Below are positions 15,549 through 22,830 of a DNA stretch of 64,000 nucleotides, in pieces (positions within the stretch are counted from its first letter, which is position 1; each line of letters opens with the position of its first letter). A model generated the notes under the pieces. That model did not search any database, had not been told where the DNA came from, and worked only from the letters and a program-made list of their open reading frames with translations. Location: positions 1-64,000 of the forward strand of contig SOJZ01000004.1 in assembly GCA_004376295.1 (NCBI GenBank), read 5' to 3'. Both the position numbers and the translations under genes were made by a program. The stretch is from Candidatus Bathyarchaeota archaeon (lineage in GTDB: Archaea; Thermoproteota; Bathyarchaeia; Bathyarchaeales; Bathyarchaeaceae).

Positions 15549-16145
15549 ATGTCAGGATTGACGGAAAACATCATAATAGGTATAGACTTGGCGGGAACAG
15601 AGACTAACCCAACAGGATGGGCTATGTGGAAAAACAAAGTTATCTCCACCTGCCACTTACACGAAAACAAACAAATCTTAGATTGTTCACTAACTCTTAA
15701 ACCAACCCTCATCGCGATAGACGCTCCCCTCAGCCTGCCGACCAAAGGCGCTATGAGAAAAGCGGATAAAGAGATGCGCAAACATGGATATCCTGTTCTT
15801 CCTCCACGCTTCCCAGCAATGAAAAAATTAACCTTAAGAGCAATAGAAATCACTAAAAAAATCATAAAAGAAGGATTCGACATAATTGAGGTTCATCTGG
15901 CATCTACTCGCAAGGCGTTGAAAATGCCCACAAAGGACTGGCAAAAAATTCAACAGATTTTCATAAGCATGGGTTTAGAGGCATACTTGAAAACACGTAC
16001 ATTGACGCCCCACGAAACTGACGCCGTGACTGCTGTCTTAACTGCACACCTTTACCTAAAAGGAAAAACAGAGCTAATAGGAGACGATAAAGAAGGCTAC
16101 ATTGTTATCCCAATAAAGAGTGGTTGGAGAACGCTACAACTATGA
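15549..16145 (+). CDS. DUF429 family protein (predicted nuclease fold)
   Basis: A 198-aa protein with the RNase H-like start IIIGIDLAGTETNPTGWA, an internal LIAIDAPLSLPTKGAMRKADKEMR and a later HETDAVTAVLTAHLY, all typical of DUF429. Biochemical function is not established. Its stop overlaps the PolD small-subunit ATG (ATGA), so the two are translationally coupled, which hints at a DNA-related role. Confidence 0.82.
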   Translation: MSGLTENIIIGIDLAGTETNPTGWAMWKNKVISTCHLHENKQILDCSLTLKPTLIAIDAPLSLPTKGAMRKADKEMRKHGYPVLPPRFPAMKKLTLRAIEITKKIIKEGFDIIEVHLASTRKALKMPTKDWQKIQQIFISMGLEAYLKTRTLTPHETDAVTAVLTAHLYLKGKTELIGDDKEGYIVIPIKSGWRTLQL

Positions 16146-17689
16146 GCGACAGACTTCAAAGAGCAGTTTCCTTTACAATAGCAGCAGGATATCAACTCGA
16201 TAAACAAGCCTTCGATTTTTTAAACACACTTTCTCAAACGGAAGATCCTGTTAAATTAATGGAAGAAGTGGTCAAAAAAATAAAAAATCTCTCTCAGAAA
16301 ACTTTGTTCATACAGCGAAGTTTTCTAGAAGAGATTGTGGAAAAGACTCTTCCAGAAGTGAAAGAAGAGAAACCTAGTTTGCCTACGCCTCCGTCGCCAA
16401 TTCTAGAAGCCAAGAAGGTTTTTCACGCATATGCGAAAGACATCGACGCGGATATAAAAGTAATAGAAGACCCTACAGATGAAATATGTGAAACCGGGTC
16501 CATTGAAGAGTATTTAGAGTATTTTCAAGATCGCTTCCAAAGAACACAGAGATTTCTAAGAAGAAGAATGGATGTCAAAGATGCCACATCCATATCGGAG
16601 GCGCTTAAATCTTCAGTTAACACAAAGGTTAAGATCATTGGCATGGTCACTGAGAAACGGCAACGAAAGCAAAGGATATTCTTGACCGTTGAAGACTTGG
16701 AAGCCAGCGCCACTGTACTTGTGACCCCAAGCACAAGCCAAGAGGTCATAAAAAAGGCACACATGTTACTATTAGACCAAGTTATTTGCATAAAAGCCAT
16801 CAAAGGAAGAAACGATTTGTTTATCGCAGAAGACATTGTTTGGCCCGACATGCCCAAAAGAAAACCCAACAAAGCCTCAATACCAGTTTATGCAGCACTC
16901 ATATCAGACTTACATATCGGAAGCAAAATGTTTATGCGAGAAGAGTTTAGCCGGTTTGTGCTTTGGTTAAATGGGAAGTTCGGAAATGAAAATTTGAAGA
17001 ATCTAGCAAGTCATGTCAAATATGTGGTGATTGCCGGCGATCTTGTAGATGGGATAGGGATTTATCCGGGGCAGTTAGACGAACTGGCGATAACAGATAT
17101 TTATGAACAGTATGGAATGGTCTCGAAATTCATTGAACAAATCCCAGATTATATCGAATTGATAATAATACCTGGAAACCACGATGCGTCCCGGAGGGCA
17201 TTACCTCAGCCCGCCATACCTAAAGATTATGCAGAGCCACTCTGTGAAGCTAGAAAAGTATATTCCCTAGGAAACCCAAGCACTGTGAGGCTTCACGAAG
17301 TCGAACTGCTTCTGTATCATGGACGTAGCCTAGATGATATTGTTGCGTCCATTCCAAACGTAAGCTTTCAAACTCCAGACAAAGCCATGAAACTTCTTCT
17401 ACAAAGCAGACATTTAGCGCCCGTTTACGGAAAAAAAACGCCTATAGCACCAGAAAAAAAGGACTTCATGATTATAGAAAGACCCCCAGACATTTTCCAC
17501 GCCGGACATGTGCACGTAATAAAATATGACACTTACCGAGGAACACTTATCGTTAACTCGGGGGCTTGGCAAAAACAGACTGAATTCCAAAAGAAAATGG
17601 GGGTTACTCCCAACCCAGGAATCGCTCCAATCGTAAACCTTCAAACATTACAAGTTACACCCATCAATTTTGCAGCATCCTATACGTGA
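16142..17689 (+). CDS. polB: DNA polymerase D small subunit (DP1), 3'-5' exonuclease
   Basis: The proofreading subunit of archaeal PolD. A variable N-terminal helical region and an OB domain (SVNTKVKIIGMVTE, about 165) precede a calcineurin-like phosphoesterase: SDLHIGSK, GDLVDGIG, PGNHDASR and HAGHVHV supply the metal ligands. Length about 515 aa. I chose ATG 16142, which overlaps the DUF429 stop, over the upstream TTG 16124. The large subunit lies 13 kb away at 29198. Confidence 0.95.
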   Translation: MSDRLQRAVSFTIAAGYQLDKQAFDFLNTLSQTEDPVKLMEEVVKKIKNLSQKTLFIQRSFLEEIVEKTLPEVKEEKPSLPTPPSPILEAKKVFHAYAKDIDADIKVIEDPTDEICETGSIEEYLEYFQDRFQRTQRFLRRRMDVKDATSISEALKSSVNTKVKIIGMVTEKRQRKQRIFLTVEDLEASATVLVTPSTSQEVIKKAHMLLLDQVICIKAIKGRNDLFIAEDIVWPDMPKRKPNKASIPVYAALISDLHIGSKMFMREEFSRFVLWLNGKFGNENLKNLASHVKYVVIAGDLVDGIGIYPGQLDELAITDIYEQYGMVSKFIEQIPDYIELIIIPGNHDASRRALPQPAIPKDYAEPLCEARKVYSLGNPSTVRLHEVELLLYHGRSLDDIVASIPNVSFQTPDKAMKLLLQSRHLAPVYGKKTPIAPEKKDFMIIERPPDIFHAGHVHVIKYDTYRGTLIVNSGAWQKQTEFQKKMGVTPNPGIAPIVNLQTLQVTPINFAASYT

Positions 17690-17847: not shown

Positions 17848-19095
17848 TCAACGCCTACTTGAAATCTCTGCCAAGTATTTAGGCGCATACTTGACTAGAC
17901 GTTCAAGCCTATCATCCGCGGTGAATGACGCTCTAACAATACTACGTGCTACGCTTAGACGAATCTTTTTTGTACGCCCGTACCGTCCCATGCTCACAAC
18001 TCGTGCGTTCAACAACCCTATCACATCCAGTTCATTCACTAAACTGCTCACCCGTCTTTGAGTTAACGGTGTAAGCCCTGACTGACTACAAAGTTCACAG
18101 TAAATTTCATAGATGTCACCAGTCACCGCACAGTTAATTTTTGCCTTGCCTAATAGATAGACGCTACATAAAACGAGTTTTGAGTGAAGTGGAAGGTTCT
18201 CTAGAGCTTCCGCAATCCGATCATGTTCAATCCTTTTTTCCGCCCGTCGTATATGATCCTCTACAACAGCTTCAGAGCCTTCGCGCTCAGCCAATTCGCC
18301 AGCAACCCGAAGAAGATCCAAAGCTCGCCGTGCATCTCCATGCTCCGCAGCGGCCAACGCGGCACACAAACTCAAAGCACCATCAAACAGAACGCCATCG
18401 TGAAATGCTGGTCGGGCACGGTCTAGAAGGATGTCTCGAAGCTCGGCTGCGTCATATGGCCTAAATACGATTTCCTCCTCGCTTAGAGAACTCAAAACTC
18501 TGGGATCAAGAAACTCTTTGAATCTAAGATCGTTGGAGATTCCCACAATTACGGTTTTGCTATAACGAAGAGTTTCGTTTATTCTAGTCAATTCGTAAAG
18601 CAGAACATCCCCCCGCGTTTTTATGAGGGCGTCGATTTCATCAAGAACAATTATAAAAAGGATTTTACATGAGTCTAAGCCAGTTTTAAATCGGTCAAAA
18701 ACTTCTCCCACAGCTAGGCCGGTAAATGGAACCTTCACGTTCAAAGTAGCACATAAACTTGAGAAAATTCTGTATTCTGTACTTATTAGTCGACAGTTAA
18801 TATAGCAGACCTTCACAGGGGCCCCAAGTTCACGAGCCTTATGACCTAGTCTGCTCAACACGTATTTTATAACCGCGGTTTTTCCTGTGCCTGTTTTTCC
18901 ATAAACCAAGACGTTAGAGCATCGGGAACCCTTTAAAACGGGGGCGCATATTTCACCAAGGTAACGGATCTGTTCCCCGCGATGTGGTAGTATGTCAGGA
19001 ATATAGTCGTGCCGCAATACCTCTCTGTCTTGAAATATGCTGTTGCCTTTCAAAAAATGTTCAAATACTTTGTCTAACACGTTAGTTTTACTCAT
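17848..19095 (-). CDS. cdc6: Orc1/Cdc6 replication initiator
   Basis: An AAA+ initiator. Walker A is GKTGTGKT (66-73 from this start) and Walker B is IIVLDEIDAL. Sensor 1 follows (VIVGISNDLRF), and a C-terminal winged helix reads TPLTQRRVSSLVNELDVIG. ATG 19095 follows GAGGG by seven bases and is preferred over TTG 19116. The protein (415 aa) is transcribed away from the adjacent intergenic region, which contains three ORB-like sites. This arrangement is typical of an archaeal origin. Confidence 0.95.
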   Translation of the reverse strand: MSKTNVLDKVFEHFLKGNSIFQDREVLRHDYIPDILPHRGEQIRYLGEICAPVLKGSRCSNVLVYGKTGTGKTAVIKYVLSRLGHKARELGAPVKVCYINCRLISTEYRIFSSLCATLNVKVPFTGLAVGEVFDRFKTGLDSCKILFIIVLDEIDALIKTRGDVLLYELTRINETLRYSKTVIVGISNDLRFKEFLDPRVLSSLSEEEIVFRPYDAAELRDILLDRARPAFHDGVLFDGALSLCAALAAAEHGDARRALDLLRVAGELAEREGSEAVVEDHIRRAEKRIEHDRIAEALENLPLHSKLVLCSVYLLGKAKINCAVTGDIYEIYCELCSQSGLTPLTQRRVSSLVNELDVIGLLNARVVSMGRYGRTKKIRLSVARSIVRASFTADDRLERLVKYAPKYLAEISSRR

Positions 19096-19142
19096 AACAT
19101 TGCCCTCAGATGTCAATTCATTGTTGAATGTTTACACTCAGA

Positions 19143-19162
19143 CCCCTACATTTCCTATGGAA
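19143..19162 (-). promoter_or_regulatory. ORB-like site 3, degenerate
   Basis: On the minus strand this reads TTCCATAGGAAATGTAGGGG. It keeps the TTCCA..GGAAA..GGGG layout of an ORB but differs in the core. It lies between cdc6 and ORB 1 and could also serve autoregulation of cdc6. Confidence 0.55.
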
Positions 19163-19322
19163 TAGCCTAGAGGTTTTACGTAATATACTTCCTTTTATAG
19201 AAGGAATAGCCTCTCAGTGGTTAGCCACTATTTTTTTATTTAATGATTATTATAGAACACTTTGAAGTGTTTTTACAGATTTTTTGTTAAAAAACATCTA
19301 CTCCCATTTTAGCAGATTTGGT

Positions 19323-19356
19323 GGTCCAGTGGAAACTTAGGGGTTGGGGTGGGGGG
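19323..19356 (+). promoter_or_regulatory. Origin recognition box (ORB) 1 with G-string
   Basis: Contains TCCAGTGGAAACTTAGGGG followed by TTGGGGTGGGGGG. This matches the archaeal ORB core (TCCAGTGGAAAC plus a 3' G-run) almost base for base. It is the best site in the region. Confidence 0.85.
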
Positions 19357-19574
19357 ATTAACCATGCTTGCTAGCAATTGTAAGCACGACGTATACGACG
19401 CGTCTTATTAGGCTCAAATAAGCATTTGTTAACACGTTAGATTGTATGAACTGTTTACTCGTTGAACACTTAACTTTTTGTGAACTGTTGTCGAATTGAT
19501 TTCCTTAATGATTTACCAACAGTCCTATTTTATGAAAATTTACTTTTTTCTGTCCTATAACGTGTAAAGAGCCG

Positions 19575-19595
19575 ACCCCCAGTCTTCCACTGGAG
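19575..19595 (-). promoter_or_regulatory. Origin recognition box (ORB) 2, inverted
   Basis: On the minus strand this reads CTCCAGTGGAAGACTGGGGG, the ORB core with a G-run, pointing toward ORB 1 across the AT-rich segment. Confidence 0.82.
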
Positions 19596-19791
19596 AATTA
19601 AGCTTACTACGCCTTTTGCGTCTATTTTGCAAACACCGCCTCTTGTGAAGTCTGTGAATCAAAAAAAATGCAAATTACGTTTATTTTTCAGTTTTAAGGC
19701 ATAATTGTCCTTTTCACCCTTCTAATATTCACCATAACTTCTATAACCTGTGACGTGTTAAATTGTAAAGAGTTTTGTTTGGTGCTTAGGG

Positions 19792-20217
19792 ATGCCTGCT
19801 AGGAAAATACGAGTGGAGGTCTTCGACGAAAATGGAAACCGTTATACAATAACCTTTACGGGTCATGTTACTAGAGACAAGGCTCTTCGTCTATTAGATG
19901 TTGTCGAACTACTCGGTGGCATGCCTGGGCTTAACCCGGGAGTGGGTGACTTTCCTTCGGAGCTGTCAAAATTTGATAAGGTTCGCTTGATTCTTGAGAA
20001 GAGTTTTCCAGTTGCGTGGTTTTCTTCTAAAGACATTCAATCTGCATATGAACAAGAGTTTAAAAAACCAATCAGTTTGAGCACAGTTTCTACATATCTA
20101 TCTCGGATGGCCCAGCGTGGTATCCTTGCAAATAGAAGTATGTCGAACCGCAAGCGTTATAGACGGATGACTAGAGTCTCGCAGGGTACATTAAGTTACA
20201 TGAAAGGTGATAAATAA
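19792..20217 (+). CDS. Winged-helix DNA-binding protein of unknown role
   Basis: A 141-aa protein. Residues 1-40 form a beta-rich segment (KIRVEVFDENGNRYTITFTG). From about residue 60 comes a winged helix: KVRLILEKSFPVAWFSSKDI, then PISLSTVSTYLSRMAQRGIL as the recognition helix, and a basic C-terminus. I do not recognise a named family. It is the first gene rightward of the origin and lies 80 bases before nurA-herA, so a role in regulating or loading that pair is plausible but unproven. Confidence 0.75.
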   Translation: MPARKIRVEVFDENGNRYTITFTGHVTRDKALRLLDVVELLGGMPGLNPGVGDFPSELSKFDKVRLILEKSFPVAWFSSKDIQSAYEQEFKKPISLSTVSTYLSRMAQRGILANRSMSNRKRYRRMTRVSQGTLSYMKGDK

Positions 20218-20297: not shown

Positions 20298-21299
20298 ATG
20301 GAGAAGAGAATTGTAAAAGATTTGGCTGAGATGGCGAAGAAGCTGGGTGAATACGTGAATACGGGCAGAGTAACGGGAGCCTATGCCGTGGAAAAGGAAC
20401 CTGCAATTGGCATTAAGCCGGAGATGAGCCAGATAAAGCCCATAAAAACCATGGCGACATATGACGGTAGTTTTCTTGCAGTAGATTGCTCCACGAAGCC
20501 TTTGAAGAGAGCGAACAACTGGGGGATATACCTACTTCGTACAGCGTATGCTTTGGTCAGACCCGAGGGAAAGAAAGTGCTTTGGGACCATAGAGAAAGT
20601 ATTTCCACGGCAGTTGGAGATGCCCGTTCGCGGGGTAAGCAATTGGAAAATATGAGGTTTGAATACGAGAGTCAACTGGCTCTAAGTCTTATTGAACAGA
20701 TTGAACTTGGTGAAAAGGACTATCTACTTCTCGATGGTGCCAGTTATTTCGGGCGAGAAAGAAGATTCAGCCTGTCCCTTTATGAGCAATCGCAAAAAAA
20801 GAATGTTCGGCTTTTTGCGATAGCAAAACAATCGCCAAGTCTTTTGGATGAAAAGGGAAGAGATTTTATGGTTGCCGTGGAAATTTCCACGGCAAGACCA
20901 ACTTGGGTTTACCACCCTGTTAAAAAGGCAAACTTCCATGAGAGCCTTTACGGGGACATATCTGTCATAAAACTGAGTCCATCAACTTCTCGCGTCTTCC
21001 GTTGCGACATAATGCAGTACCTAACTAGCCGTGAAGTCAATGAATTACTTTCCCCCTTAACCTCTATCTCCGAAGATCCAAGGTGTTTGGGATACCCCGT
21101 CAGCCTCTTTCTAGCTCACGACTTCTCTAAACTGTCATCCCATTCAAAACTTCTTCAATACCTTGACCTAATTGAGGAGAAACTTGCTGAGGAGGGGGTA
21201 CTAGATATCATTCGTAGGGAGGAACTTTCGAGTAACTTCCGAAACGAATTGTGTGGCATAAAATATTCATTTGAGTGGGAGATGGACTGGCGTGTCTGA
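20298..21299 (+). CDS. nurA: NurA-domain 5'-3' nuclease
   Basis: NurA family nuclease (333 aa), partner of HerA in archaeal DNA end resection. The metal-binding Asp is in ATYDGSFLAVDC (Asp56); a second conserved Asp is in YLLLDGASYFG, and the C-terminal LFLAHDFSKLS supplies the HD-like block. ATG is preceded by GAGGAG with good spacing. It overlaps the herA start by eight bases, so the complex is translationally coupled. No mre11-rad50 is visible nearby. Confidence 0.85.
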   Translation: MEKRIVKDLAEMAKKLGEYVNTGRVTGAYAVEKEPAIGIKPEMSQIKPIKTMATYDGSFLAVDCSTKPLKRANNWGIYLLRTAYALVRPEGKKVLWDHRESISTAVGDARSRGKQLENMRFEYESQLALSLIEQIELGEKDYLLLDGASYFGRERRFSLSLYEQSQKKNVRLFAIAKQSPSLLDEKGRDFMVAVEISTARPTWVYHPVKKANFHESLYGDISVIKLSPSTSRVFRCDIMQYLTSREVNELLSPLTSISEDPRCLGYPVSLFLAHDFSKLSSHSKLLQYLDLIEEKLAEEGVLDIIRREELSSNFRNELCGIKYSFEWEMDWRV

Positions 21300-22830
21300 G
21301 CCTGTAGGATTTATTCGTGAAGTAAGCGGAGATCGGGTTTCATTCTTCCTTAATCGAGGAACCAACCTTTCATTTGGTCAGATAGTTCGAATAGACTCAG
21401 GCAATAGAAGCTTCTACGCACGGGTCATTGATGCTGGGAGTTCCTCTACGTTGAAAACGGACGAGCAACTCCGTGAAGCAGAGGGGAAGGAGTCCTTTGG
21501 GCCATACTCTAGCTATAGACATGTTGATGCCATTCTTTTCCTTGAGAAAGATGTCGGGAAAATTCGTTCTCCAACTTTTAACCCGGATTATATGGACAAG
21601 GTGTACGCGGCTAGTGATGAGGACTGTTCGGTTTTGAGGCTTGCAGGGGAGTTGGAGATAGGGCGTTTACGTTCAGGGGAACGCGTGCTTGGTCCTGTCG
21701 GCATAAGTGTTGAGGCTATACCTCTGATGATGGGAATGTTCGGAATGACAGGGTGTGGGAAAACGAATTGTGAATTGATGCTTAACGCTCGGATTATAGA
21801 TTCGAGCCCAAGGACTGTTGGTTTAATTTTTGACTTTGCAGGTCAACTTCTTGAGGGCAAAGGGATAGCACCTCAACGAGGCCTGAGGGATCATCCACTC
21901 TTTCACACCAAAGTTCGTTATTACTCGGCTAGAGAGCAGAAGATGCTTGTTGGTCTATATACGATTCGTCCTCAAAAACTTTCAACACTCTTTCCTGACA
22001 TTACACATCATCAAGTTAGGCTTGCTCAAAAACTTTACAAGAGTTTGGGGAACACTTGGATAGAACGGTTGCAAGAAGCCTATAGTATAGATGGGCATAA
22101 AGGAGTGGCTGAGTTCAGCGACTACAAAGGCAAAGCCGTGGTAGATGCCCTTATGCTAAAGCTTTCAAGTTTGTCTCCACATCTTTTTCCGCCGTCTGAC
22201 TACAGTTTCGTTGATGATGTAGTACAGAACGTGGGCCAAGGCGTCACCTGTCTCGTCGATATTTCAGGTCTCAGTTCTGAGGAGCAATATGATGTTACCT
22301 GTCTTACAGCTTCTAGCGTGGCCCTCCACTACAAGAGGTTGTGGGAGAGTAATTTTAGTGCGTGGAAAAAGCTTCCAACCCTTCTGATTACTCTTGAAGA
22401 GGCCCATGAGTTCCTTGATCCAAACATGCCTAAAACAATATTCTCGGATATTGCGCTGACATATCGAAAGTATCGGGTGGGGTTGAACGCAGTGACACCG
22501 CGGCCTTCAAGAATAAACCCTAATGTCTTCGCTGAGCTTTGGACCAAGGTTGTCATGAAGACGGAGTTGCGTCGTGACAGGGTCTACCTTACGGGCAACA
22601 CGCCTTATCTTGAGTACAGTGACACTGAGATAAAGATGCTCGATGTTGGGGAAGCTTTGCTTATCTCGGAGCCTAAAATCCGATTCGCAGTTCCGATAAA
22701 GGTTATTCATTATCCTGAGTACATTGACGAGAGGGGAAAGGTTGATTATAAGCTCTCTGCGTCAAAACCACTTTCTGAAATGGATGAAAGGCTCAAAAAA
22801 CTTCGTGAAGCTGGAAAAACAAATTTGTGA
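21292..22830 (+). CDS. herA: HerA-like bipolar DNA helicase/translocase
   Basis: An FtsK-HerA ATPase of 512 aa. The N-terminal HAS barrel (VGFIREVSGDRVSFFL) is followed by Walker A GMTGCGKTN (151-159), a strand VGLIFDFAGQLL where HerA usually has DPHGEY, and Walker B with catalytic Glu in LLITLEEAHEFL. A C-terminal arginine-finger region (RPSRINPN) follows. GTG 21292 with GGGAGA upstream is preferred over TTG 21271. The FDFAG variant places it away from the best-known HerA sequences. Works with NurA as a hexameric pump. Confidence 0.87.
   Translation: MSEPVGFIREVSGDRVSFFLNRGTNLSFGQIVRIDSGNRSFYARVIDAGSSSTLKTDEQLREAEGKESFGPYSSYRHVDAILFLEKDVGKIRSPTFNPDYMDKVYAASDEDCSVLRLAGELEIGRLRSGERVLGPVGISVEAIPLMMGMFGMTGCGKTNCELMLNARIIDSSPRTVGLIFDFAGQLLEGKGIAPQRGLRDHPLFHTKVRYYSAREQKMLVGLYTIRPQKLSTLFPDITHHQVRLAQKLYKSLGNTWIERLQEAYSIDGHKGVAEFSDYKGKAVVDALMLKLSSLSPHLFPPSDYSFVDDVVQNVGQGVTCLVDISGLSSEEQYDVTCLTASSVALHYKRLWESNFSAWKKLPTLLITLEEAHEFLDPNMPKTIFSDIALTYRKYRVGLNAVTPRPSRINPNVFAELWTKVVMKTELRRDRVYLTGNTPYLEYSDTEIKMLDVGEALLISEPKIRFAVPIKVIHYPEYIDERGKVDYKLSASKPLSEMDERLKKLREAGKTNL

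Follow-up and report, generated by a model that had tools for sequence, protein, structure and literature searches.

The closest described systems to the locus considered here are the Pyrococcus oriC, the haloarchaeal oriC1 and the Sulfolobus oriC1, in which opposed ORBs likewise flank AT-rich DNA beside a cdc6 gene, and in many Euryarchaeota the gene for the PolD small subunit (DP1) also lies beside cdc6, as it does here (PMC4010727, PMC2643942, PMC6742236). A further type of origin-associated protein is represented by UBP, a small beta-rich saddle protein with more than 300 genomic sites that is described as having been acquired recently in the Desulfurococcales and Sulfolobales, and the paper on this protein ends by asking whether divergent archaea possess analogous origin proteins (PMC12141716).

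The DNA analysed, which we refer to as the window, comprises 64 kb at the start of contig 4 (134,706 bp) of an archaeal MAG of 1.89 Mb in 44 contigs, and those relatives of its Cdc6 that carry names belong to Candidatus Bathyarchaeota and Bathyarchaeum. In the open-access papers searched we found no prior description of any Bathyarchaeia origin, and the B. tardum genome paper makes no mention of replication or of Cdc6. The original prediction for this region, a candidate ORB origin linked to cdc6, is supported by a conserved ORB triad and by a strand switch in a relative, and on sequence grounds the locus is very likely where a Bathyarchaeia archaeon begins to replicate its chromosome, an origin of the cdc6-linked ORB type. 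That type is known; what is new is an array of TGTGAA boxes and an undescribed protein, wH141, which the prediction had missed and without which it was incomplete. More surprising than the origin itself is this combination of a conserved second element with an origin-locked winged-helix protein, in which box and helix co-vary.

The cdc6-linked ORB triad

The genes and sites on which the origin assignment is based are the following:

16124–17689, plus strand: PolD small subunit, DP1 (Pfam PF04042, NCBIfam NF003118), convergent with cdc6
17848–19095, minus strand: orc1/cdc6 initiator gene (NCBIfam NF001625, ORC1-type, 518 bits; Pfam Cdc6_C and Cdc6_lid)
19137–19161, minus strand: ORB1, TCCATAGGAAATGTAGGGGTCTGAG, 28.9 bits, directly upstream of the cdc6 start, conserved in relatives
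19162–19324, no strand: ORB1–ORB2 interval, candidate unwinding region, 70% AT and the AT-richest, with 76% in its best 100 bp (19221–19320)
19325–19349, plus strand: ORB2, TCCAGTGGAAACTTAGGGGTTGGGG, 36.3 bits, conserved in relatives
19350–19569, no strand: ORB2–ORB3 interval, candidate unwinding region, 65% AT, between converging ORBs and containing box U1
19570–19594, minus strand: ORB3, TCCAGTGGAAGACTGGGGGTCGGCT, 20.0 bits, position conserved in relatives
21271–22830, plus strand: HerA-like ATPase (Pfam DUF87, E=1.4e-7; NCBIfam HerA below cut-off)

The cdc6 gene starts at an ATG at 19095, with the reading frame also open from a TTG at 19116, and the alignment of its product with most relatives begins at about residue 8. 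Of the neighbours named in the original prediction, the PolD small subunit is borne out by both of its family matches, and HerA holds as a HerA-like ATPase carrying DUF87 that does not reach the NCBIfam HerA cut-off; this gene is missing from the loci of several relatives. The name NurA for 20298–21299 finds no Pfam or NCBIfam match; the label is suggested solely by adjacency to the HerA-like ATPase. A search of Rfam with the region between cdc6 and wH141 gave no match to an RNA element.

Upstream of cdc6 lie three ORBs in the order −,+,−. They were scored with a matrix built from 25 training sites taken from other genera only, the window's own genus being left out, and they are the only sites above 15 bits in the 64 kb, the next best scoring 13.0 bits and the top score in 200 Markov-shuffled windows being 19.5 bits. 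Two of them, ORB2 and ORB3, are the opposed near-consensus sites predicted at 19323–19356 (plus) and 19575–19595 (minus). A third site near cdc6 had been foreseen as degenerate; it exists, but at 28.9 bits it outscores ORB3. The G-run said to accompany the ORBs is present beyond ORB2 at 19340–19357, but is not conserved, even where Cdc6 is 96% identical, and a G-quadruplex considered at these positions was rejected because the run is unconserved among relatives. A motif search for further ORBs, which the original prediction had proposed, returned three occurrences of the exact pattern TCCANNNGAANNNNNGGGGT genome-wide, all upstream of cdc6.

Where the locus is intact, nearly every relative has the triad upstream of cdc6; this holds for different genera and families of the order and also for other orders of the class Bathyarchaeia, so that the absence of ORBs at this locus from close relatives, named in advance as evidence against an origin, is not what is seen. 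A relative without the triad, G016, has a locus broken by a 100-N joint. The spacing between ORB1 and ORB2 is 163–197 bp in 25 of 26 genomes, and that between ORB2 and ORB3 varies from 173 to 291 bp. In the same-family relative G022 the exact pattern occurs twice, both times at cdc6, and a matrix scan of a 73% sample of this genome, with its own triad falling just beyond the sampled part, gave no site above 14 bits. Further afield, at a Njordarchaeota locus (L059) whose Cdc6 is 47% identical, no ORB of the Bathyarchaeia type scores more than 6 bits within 1.5 kb upstream of cdc6, and seven near-complete genomes of the same class (G034, G067, G138, G141, G142, G143 and G145) have neither a close Cdc6 (E <= 1e-60) nor wH141.

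Two intervals are candidates for the site of unwinding. ORB polarity favours the ORB2–ORB3 interval, where the two sites converge with their G ends inward, whereas composition favours ORB1–ORB2, which is the richer in AT in 21 of 26 relatives as well. The description of an AT-rich segment between facing ORBs is accordingly right about the converging sites, but the segment is only moderately AT-rich, at 65% against 56% for the window. The ORB1–ORB2 pair is kept at cdc6 where ORB3 has been lost or displaced (G135, G006, G062 and G066).

Counting the origin-linked cdc6, the genome of the window encodes three Orc paralogs, and it may hold further minor origins. The other two (G000:C31:104888-105994 and G000:C5:20446-21549) are possible regulators or element-borne initiators, and the matrix found no ORB above 10 bits near them in the sequenced stretches examined. 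A weak ORB-like site of 9.9 bits at 17586–17610, within the 3′ end of the gene for the PolD small subunit, may reflect coding constraint; in Thermococcales, ORBs have been reported inside this gene (PMC2643942).

Strand asymmetry at the locus

The strongest test of strand asymmetry was made not in the window MAG, which is in 44 contigs, but in G022, a single contig of 2,202,057 bp (73% sampled) from the same family, in a genus that it shares with the MAGs G015 and G021 of B. tardum. A symmetric two-arm model of keto-skew has its optimum at 990 kb in this genome, where cdc6 lies at 989.9–991.1 kb; none of 2000 block shuffles was equally strong, and bootstrapping gave a 95% range of about ±170 kb. 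At fourfold-degenerate sites T–A skew has its best change point about 4 kb away from the ORBs, none of 1000 permutations being equally strong, and the opposite switch, which marks the terminus, lies about 3 kb away from the antipode. T–A skew at these sites is +0.098 in leading-strand genes and −0.077 in lagging-strand genes and keeps the same sign in both arms whatever the direction of the gene, so that its source is replication and not transcription. The switch and its antipodal terminus match the pattern predicted for a single bidirectional origin.

A cumulative skew with its maximum elsewhere had been named in advance as evidence against an origin here. The keto and T–A curves do switch at cdc6, but GC skew alone is weak in G022 and does not mark the cdc6/ORB locus, the signal being one of T over A; GC skew was rejected as an origin test, being both weak and off the locus. 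Leading strands in G022 are T-rich over A at synonymous sites with GC skew nearly silent, and 57% of the coding length is co-directional with replication. The best switch also lies within 2 kb of the ORBs on the window contig (G000:C4), where the sign is the same, on G003:C15 and on G013:C2, none of them significant singly, and in G032 the sign of the skew at the ORBs agrees but a stronger switch lies elsewhere. The CP070xxx ‘chromosome’ records were excluded from the skew analysis, since G016 has a 100-N joint and several records exceed the length of the corresponding contigs by 100 bases; such single-contig ‘chromosome’ MAGs are apparently contigs joined by 100 N, and their skew and synteny are untrustworthy.

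These results bear on the reading in which the ORBs serve only as Cdc6 operators for cdc6 and wH141, with replication beginning elsewhere. ORB1 is no more than about 70 bp from the start of cdc6, a position that an operator might occupy, but asymmetry in G022 switches at this locus and at its antipode, at synonymous sites and irrespective of gene direction, and the exact pattern gives no ORB-like sites elsewhere in the genome, so that we regard an operator-only role as highly improbable.

The TGTGAA array and the wH141 protein

Once the ORBs had been masked, word counts in 27 intergenic regions showed TTGTGAA to be strongly enriched, with 134 strand-doubled counts against 11.7 expected and occurrences in 24 of the 27 genomes. 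In the window the boxes and the gene towards which they point are:

19479–19494, plus strand: U1 box pair, TGTGAA at 19479 and a diverged TGTCGA at 19489, −105 from the ORB3 start
19644–19658, plus strand: U2 box pair, TGTGAAGTCTGTGAA, intact copies at 19644 and 19653, +50/+59 from ORB3
19738–19770, plus strand: U3 element, TTCTATAACCTGTGACGTGTTAAATTGTAAAGA, +155 from ORB3, at the putative wH141 promoter, the window copy reading TGTGAC (19749)
19792–20217, plus strand: wH141, a 141-aa predicted winged-helix protein (AlphaFold2 secondary structure), divergent from cdc6 across the origin

The boxes at these three conserved positions are all oriented toward the right-hand gene, wH141, and are set in a rigid register with ORB3, the mean offsets from its start being −104.1 (sd 0.7) for U1, +58.8 (sd 0.4) for U2 and +155.1 (sd 0.6) for U3. 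An exact TGTGAA lies within 1 bp of −104, +59 and +155 in 67–70% of the 27 genomes, against a mean of 0.4% at other offsets, and no offset counted from ORB2 gathers more than 5 of the 27. With mismatches allowed, U1 is found at −103 to −105 in 22 genomes (at least five of six letters matching); U2 is found at +58 to +59 in 24, and U3 at +154 to +156 in 25, with the consensus TCTATAACTTGTGAAgTGTTAA. The composite forms of the box are rare or absent outside the origin in the sequence examined, U2 being the sole exact TGTGAAN3TGTGAA in 195 kb of its own genome.

The wH141 protein belongs to no Pfam or NCBIfam family at cut-off, and a search of the PDB gave it no name. Its AlphaFold2 model is of moderate quality (pLDDT about 72), in which a beta-beta-alpha part at the N-terminus is followed by a winged helix at the C-terminus, whose predicted recognition helix spans about residues 96–108 and includes Thr98; a deeper alignment brought no better model (pLDDT 72.5 to 71.9). 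Foldseek returned only generic winged-helix repressors, the best at E of about 1.6e-3 and none below 1e-3, the nearest folds being repressors of the MecI/ArsR type. The window protein misses the gathering score of Pfam Penicillinase_R (19.6 against 22.6 bits), the best Pfam E among wH141 members being 6.5e-5. A wH141 gene is present in 51 of 61 relatives, 106 of 128 genomes of the class and 251 of 397 of the phylum, single-copy in nearly all genomes searched (G005 has additional fragmentary matches). Throughout the class it is linked to cdc6 and the ORBs, and it remains beside the origin where the NurA- and HerA-like genes have been lost. Of 25 genomes sampled from other classes, 18 have it divergent from cdc6 and about 470–650 bp away, counting those that span a contig start.

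Residue 98 was compared with box counts at 58 loci. The 45 genomes with Thr98 have 4.3 TGTGAA against 1.0 TGTTAA per 450 bp, and the nine genomes of families f23 and f51 with Ile, Val or Leu98 have 5 to 12 TGTTAA and 0 to 2 TGTGAA each. G136 (Gly97-Val98) has four TGTTGA and no TGTGAA, and G049 (Ala98) mostly TGTTAA; G032, with Ala98 and TGTGAA, is an exception, and G013, with Met98, is uninformative. Family f58, which lies beside f23 and f51 in the tree, keeps Thr98 and TGTGAA, which implies about three independent shifts. Families f23 and f51 resemble ammonia-oxidising archaea in genome size and completeness, and most of their intergenic regions contain 8–12 TGTTAA against about one expected, with ORB-like sites also present. 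Supported by this co-variation, wH141 likely binds the TGTGAA boxes.

The shift of the box letters along with the recognition helix also speaks against another protein being the one that binds the boxes (an Orc1/Cdc6 paralog, a UBP-like abundant nucleoid protein or MCM), with wH141 a bystander. Such a binder would have precedents in Sulfolobus, where Orc paralogs, WhiP and UBP have additional sites at the origins (PMC6742236, PMC12141716), and candidates in the two additional Orc paralogs of this genome; given the co-variation, and the rarity or absence of full composite boxes elsewhere in the sequence examined, we consider it improbable.

Loci that have been rearranged amount to a natural experiment on whether the origin belongs with cdc6 or with wH141. 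In family f15 (G075 and G077) every ORB found is upstream of wH141, at 3.3 kb from cdc6, and in f10 an ORB with boxes lies upstream of wH141, 3.9 kb from cdc6; on the cdc6 side, ORB1 and ORB2 are kept in G062 and none was found in G061 and G065. At the loci of f15 (L187, L193, L209, L210) and f10 (L190–L195, L211–L215), parts of the origin leave cdc6 and follow wH141. G135 keeps cdc6 and ORBs without ORB3, boxes or wH141, as does G006, a possibly defective MAG from which all three are missing, and G136 keeps wH141 and two ORBs with neither ORB3 nor TGTGAA. Across these rearranged loci ORB3, the boxes and wH141 behave as one unit.

A unit of this kind could belong to an ordinary origin next to which wH141 is merely a self-regulated transcription factor, its operators overlapping the origin, ORB3 providing control of wH141 by Cdc6 and the boxes having no role in replication. 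In keeping with this, in almost every lineage examined U3 is located at the wH141 promoter, ORB3 and the boxes travel with wH141 and not cdc6 in f10, and the closest folds are those of MecI/ArsR-type repressors. Boxes also lie 260–310 bp upstream, however, past ORB3; U1 stays fixed to ORB3 within 1 bp although ORB2–ORB3 ranges over 173–291 bp; a plain repressor would not usually stay linked to an origin in two or more classes; and in f15 all of the ORBs found follow wH141. We judge simple self-regulation to be unlikely, though it is the weightiest of the alternatives considered. The reading that we prefer, and hold with considerable confidence, is of an ORB-type oriC together with a TGTGAA array that is most likely bound by wH141, which may thereby modulate the origin.

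The sites, their rigid spacing, conservation and linkage, and the strand switch are established by computation, and the following mechanism is proposed for them. The Orc1/Cdc6 encoded by the adjacent gene would bind the three ORBs of alternating polarity and would recruit MCM, as in other archaea, to the AT-rich stretch that separates oppositely oriented ORBs, where we infer that it is loaded; two forks would then depart from the origin and meet opposite it. When bound to U1, U2 and U3, wH141 would flank ORB3 on both sides and also occupy its own promoter, where it would control its own level, and any effect on initiation would most likely be exerted through the assembly or timing of the origin.

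Comparison with other origin-binding proteins

Three features distinguish this locus from known archaeal ORB origins, namely the fixed −,+,− triad, the TGTGAA array in rigid register with ORB3, and wH141 across the origin. Its abundant class, Bathyarchaeia, gains from it a concrete origin and terminus that are testable in an existing enrichment.

The weak resemblance of the C-terminal winged helix of wH141 to BlaI/MecI (Penicillinase_R) and ArsR-type repressors is accompanied by clear differences, as wH141 adds a beta-beta-alpha part at its N-terminus, is locked to the origin and, in the window, falls below every curated family cut-off. Among proteins that act at origins, WhiP is a winged-helix initiator, comparable with wH141 only in that a winged-helix gene stands beside an origin. 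At Sulfolobus oriC3 it is encoded next to the origin at which it acts, and it replaces Cdc6 in driving that origin, whereas wH141 accompanies cdc6 (PMC4010727, PMC6742236).

The Sulfolobus ucm/UBP system is alike in plan in having a second sequence-specific element between ORBs with its own candidate binder (PMC12141716). The predicted fold of wH141 differs from the beta-strand saddle described for UBP, and no UBP entry occurs among the PDB matches listed, so that homology is not indicated; in contrast to UBP, wH141 is predicted to be a winged-helix protein, is encoded at the origin, and has boxes that are several and rigidly spaced, with composites specific to the origin in the sequence examined. 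It is thus a specific and testable candidate for the analogous origin protein raised by the UBP paper. We tentatively suggest, as a possibility that is somewhat short of probable, that wH141 is an ancient and dedicated second origin-binding factor of the Thermoproteota (of Bathyarchaeia and, by inference from genome size and completeness, of ammonia-oxidising archaea). Such a factor would be encoded at the origin, would read TGTGAA or TGTTAA boxes (in rigid ORB register in Bathyarchaeia) and would participate in initiation or in its timing, filling the place of UBP or WhiP in lineages without these proteins.
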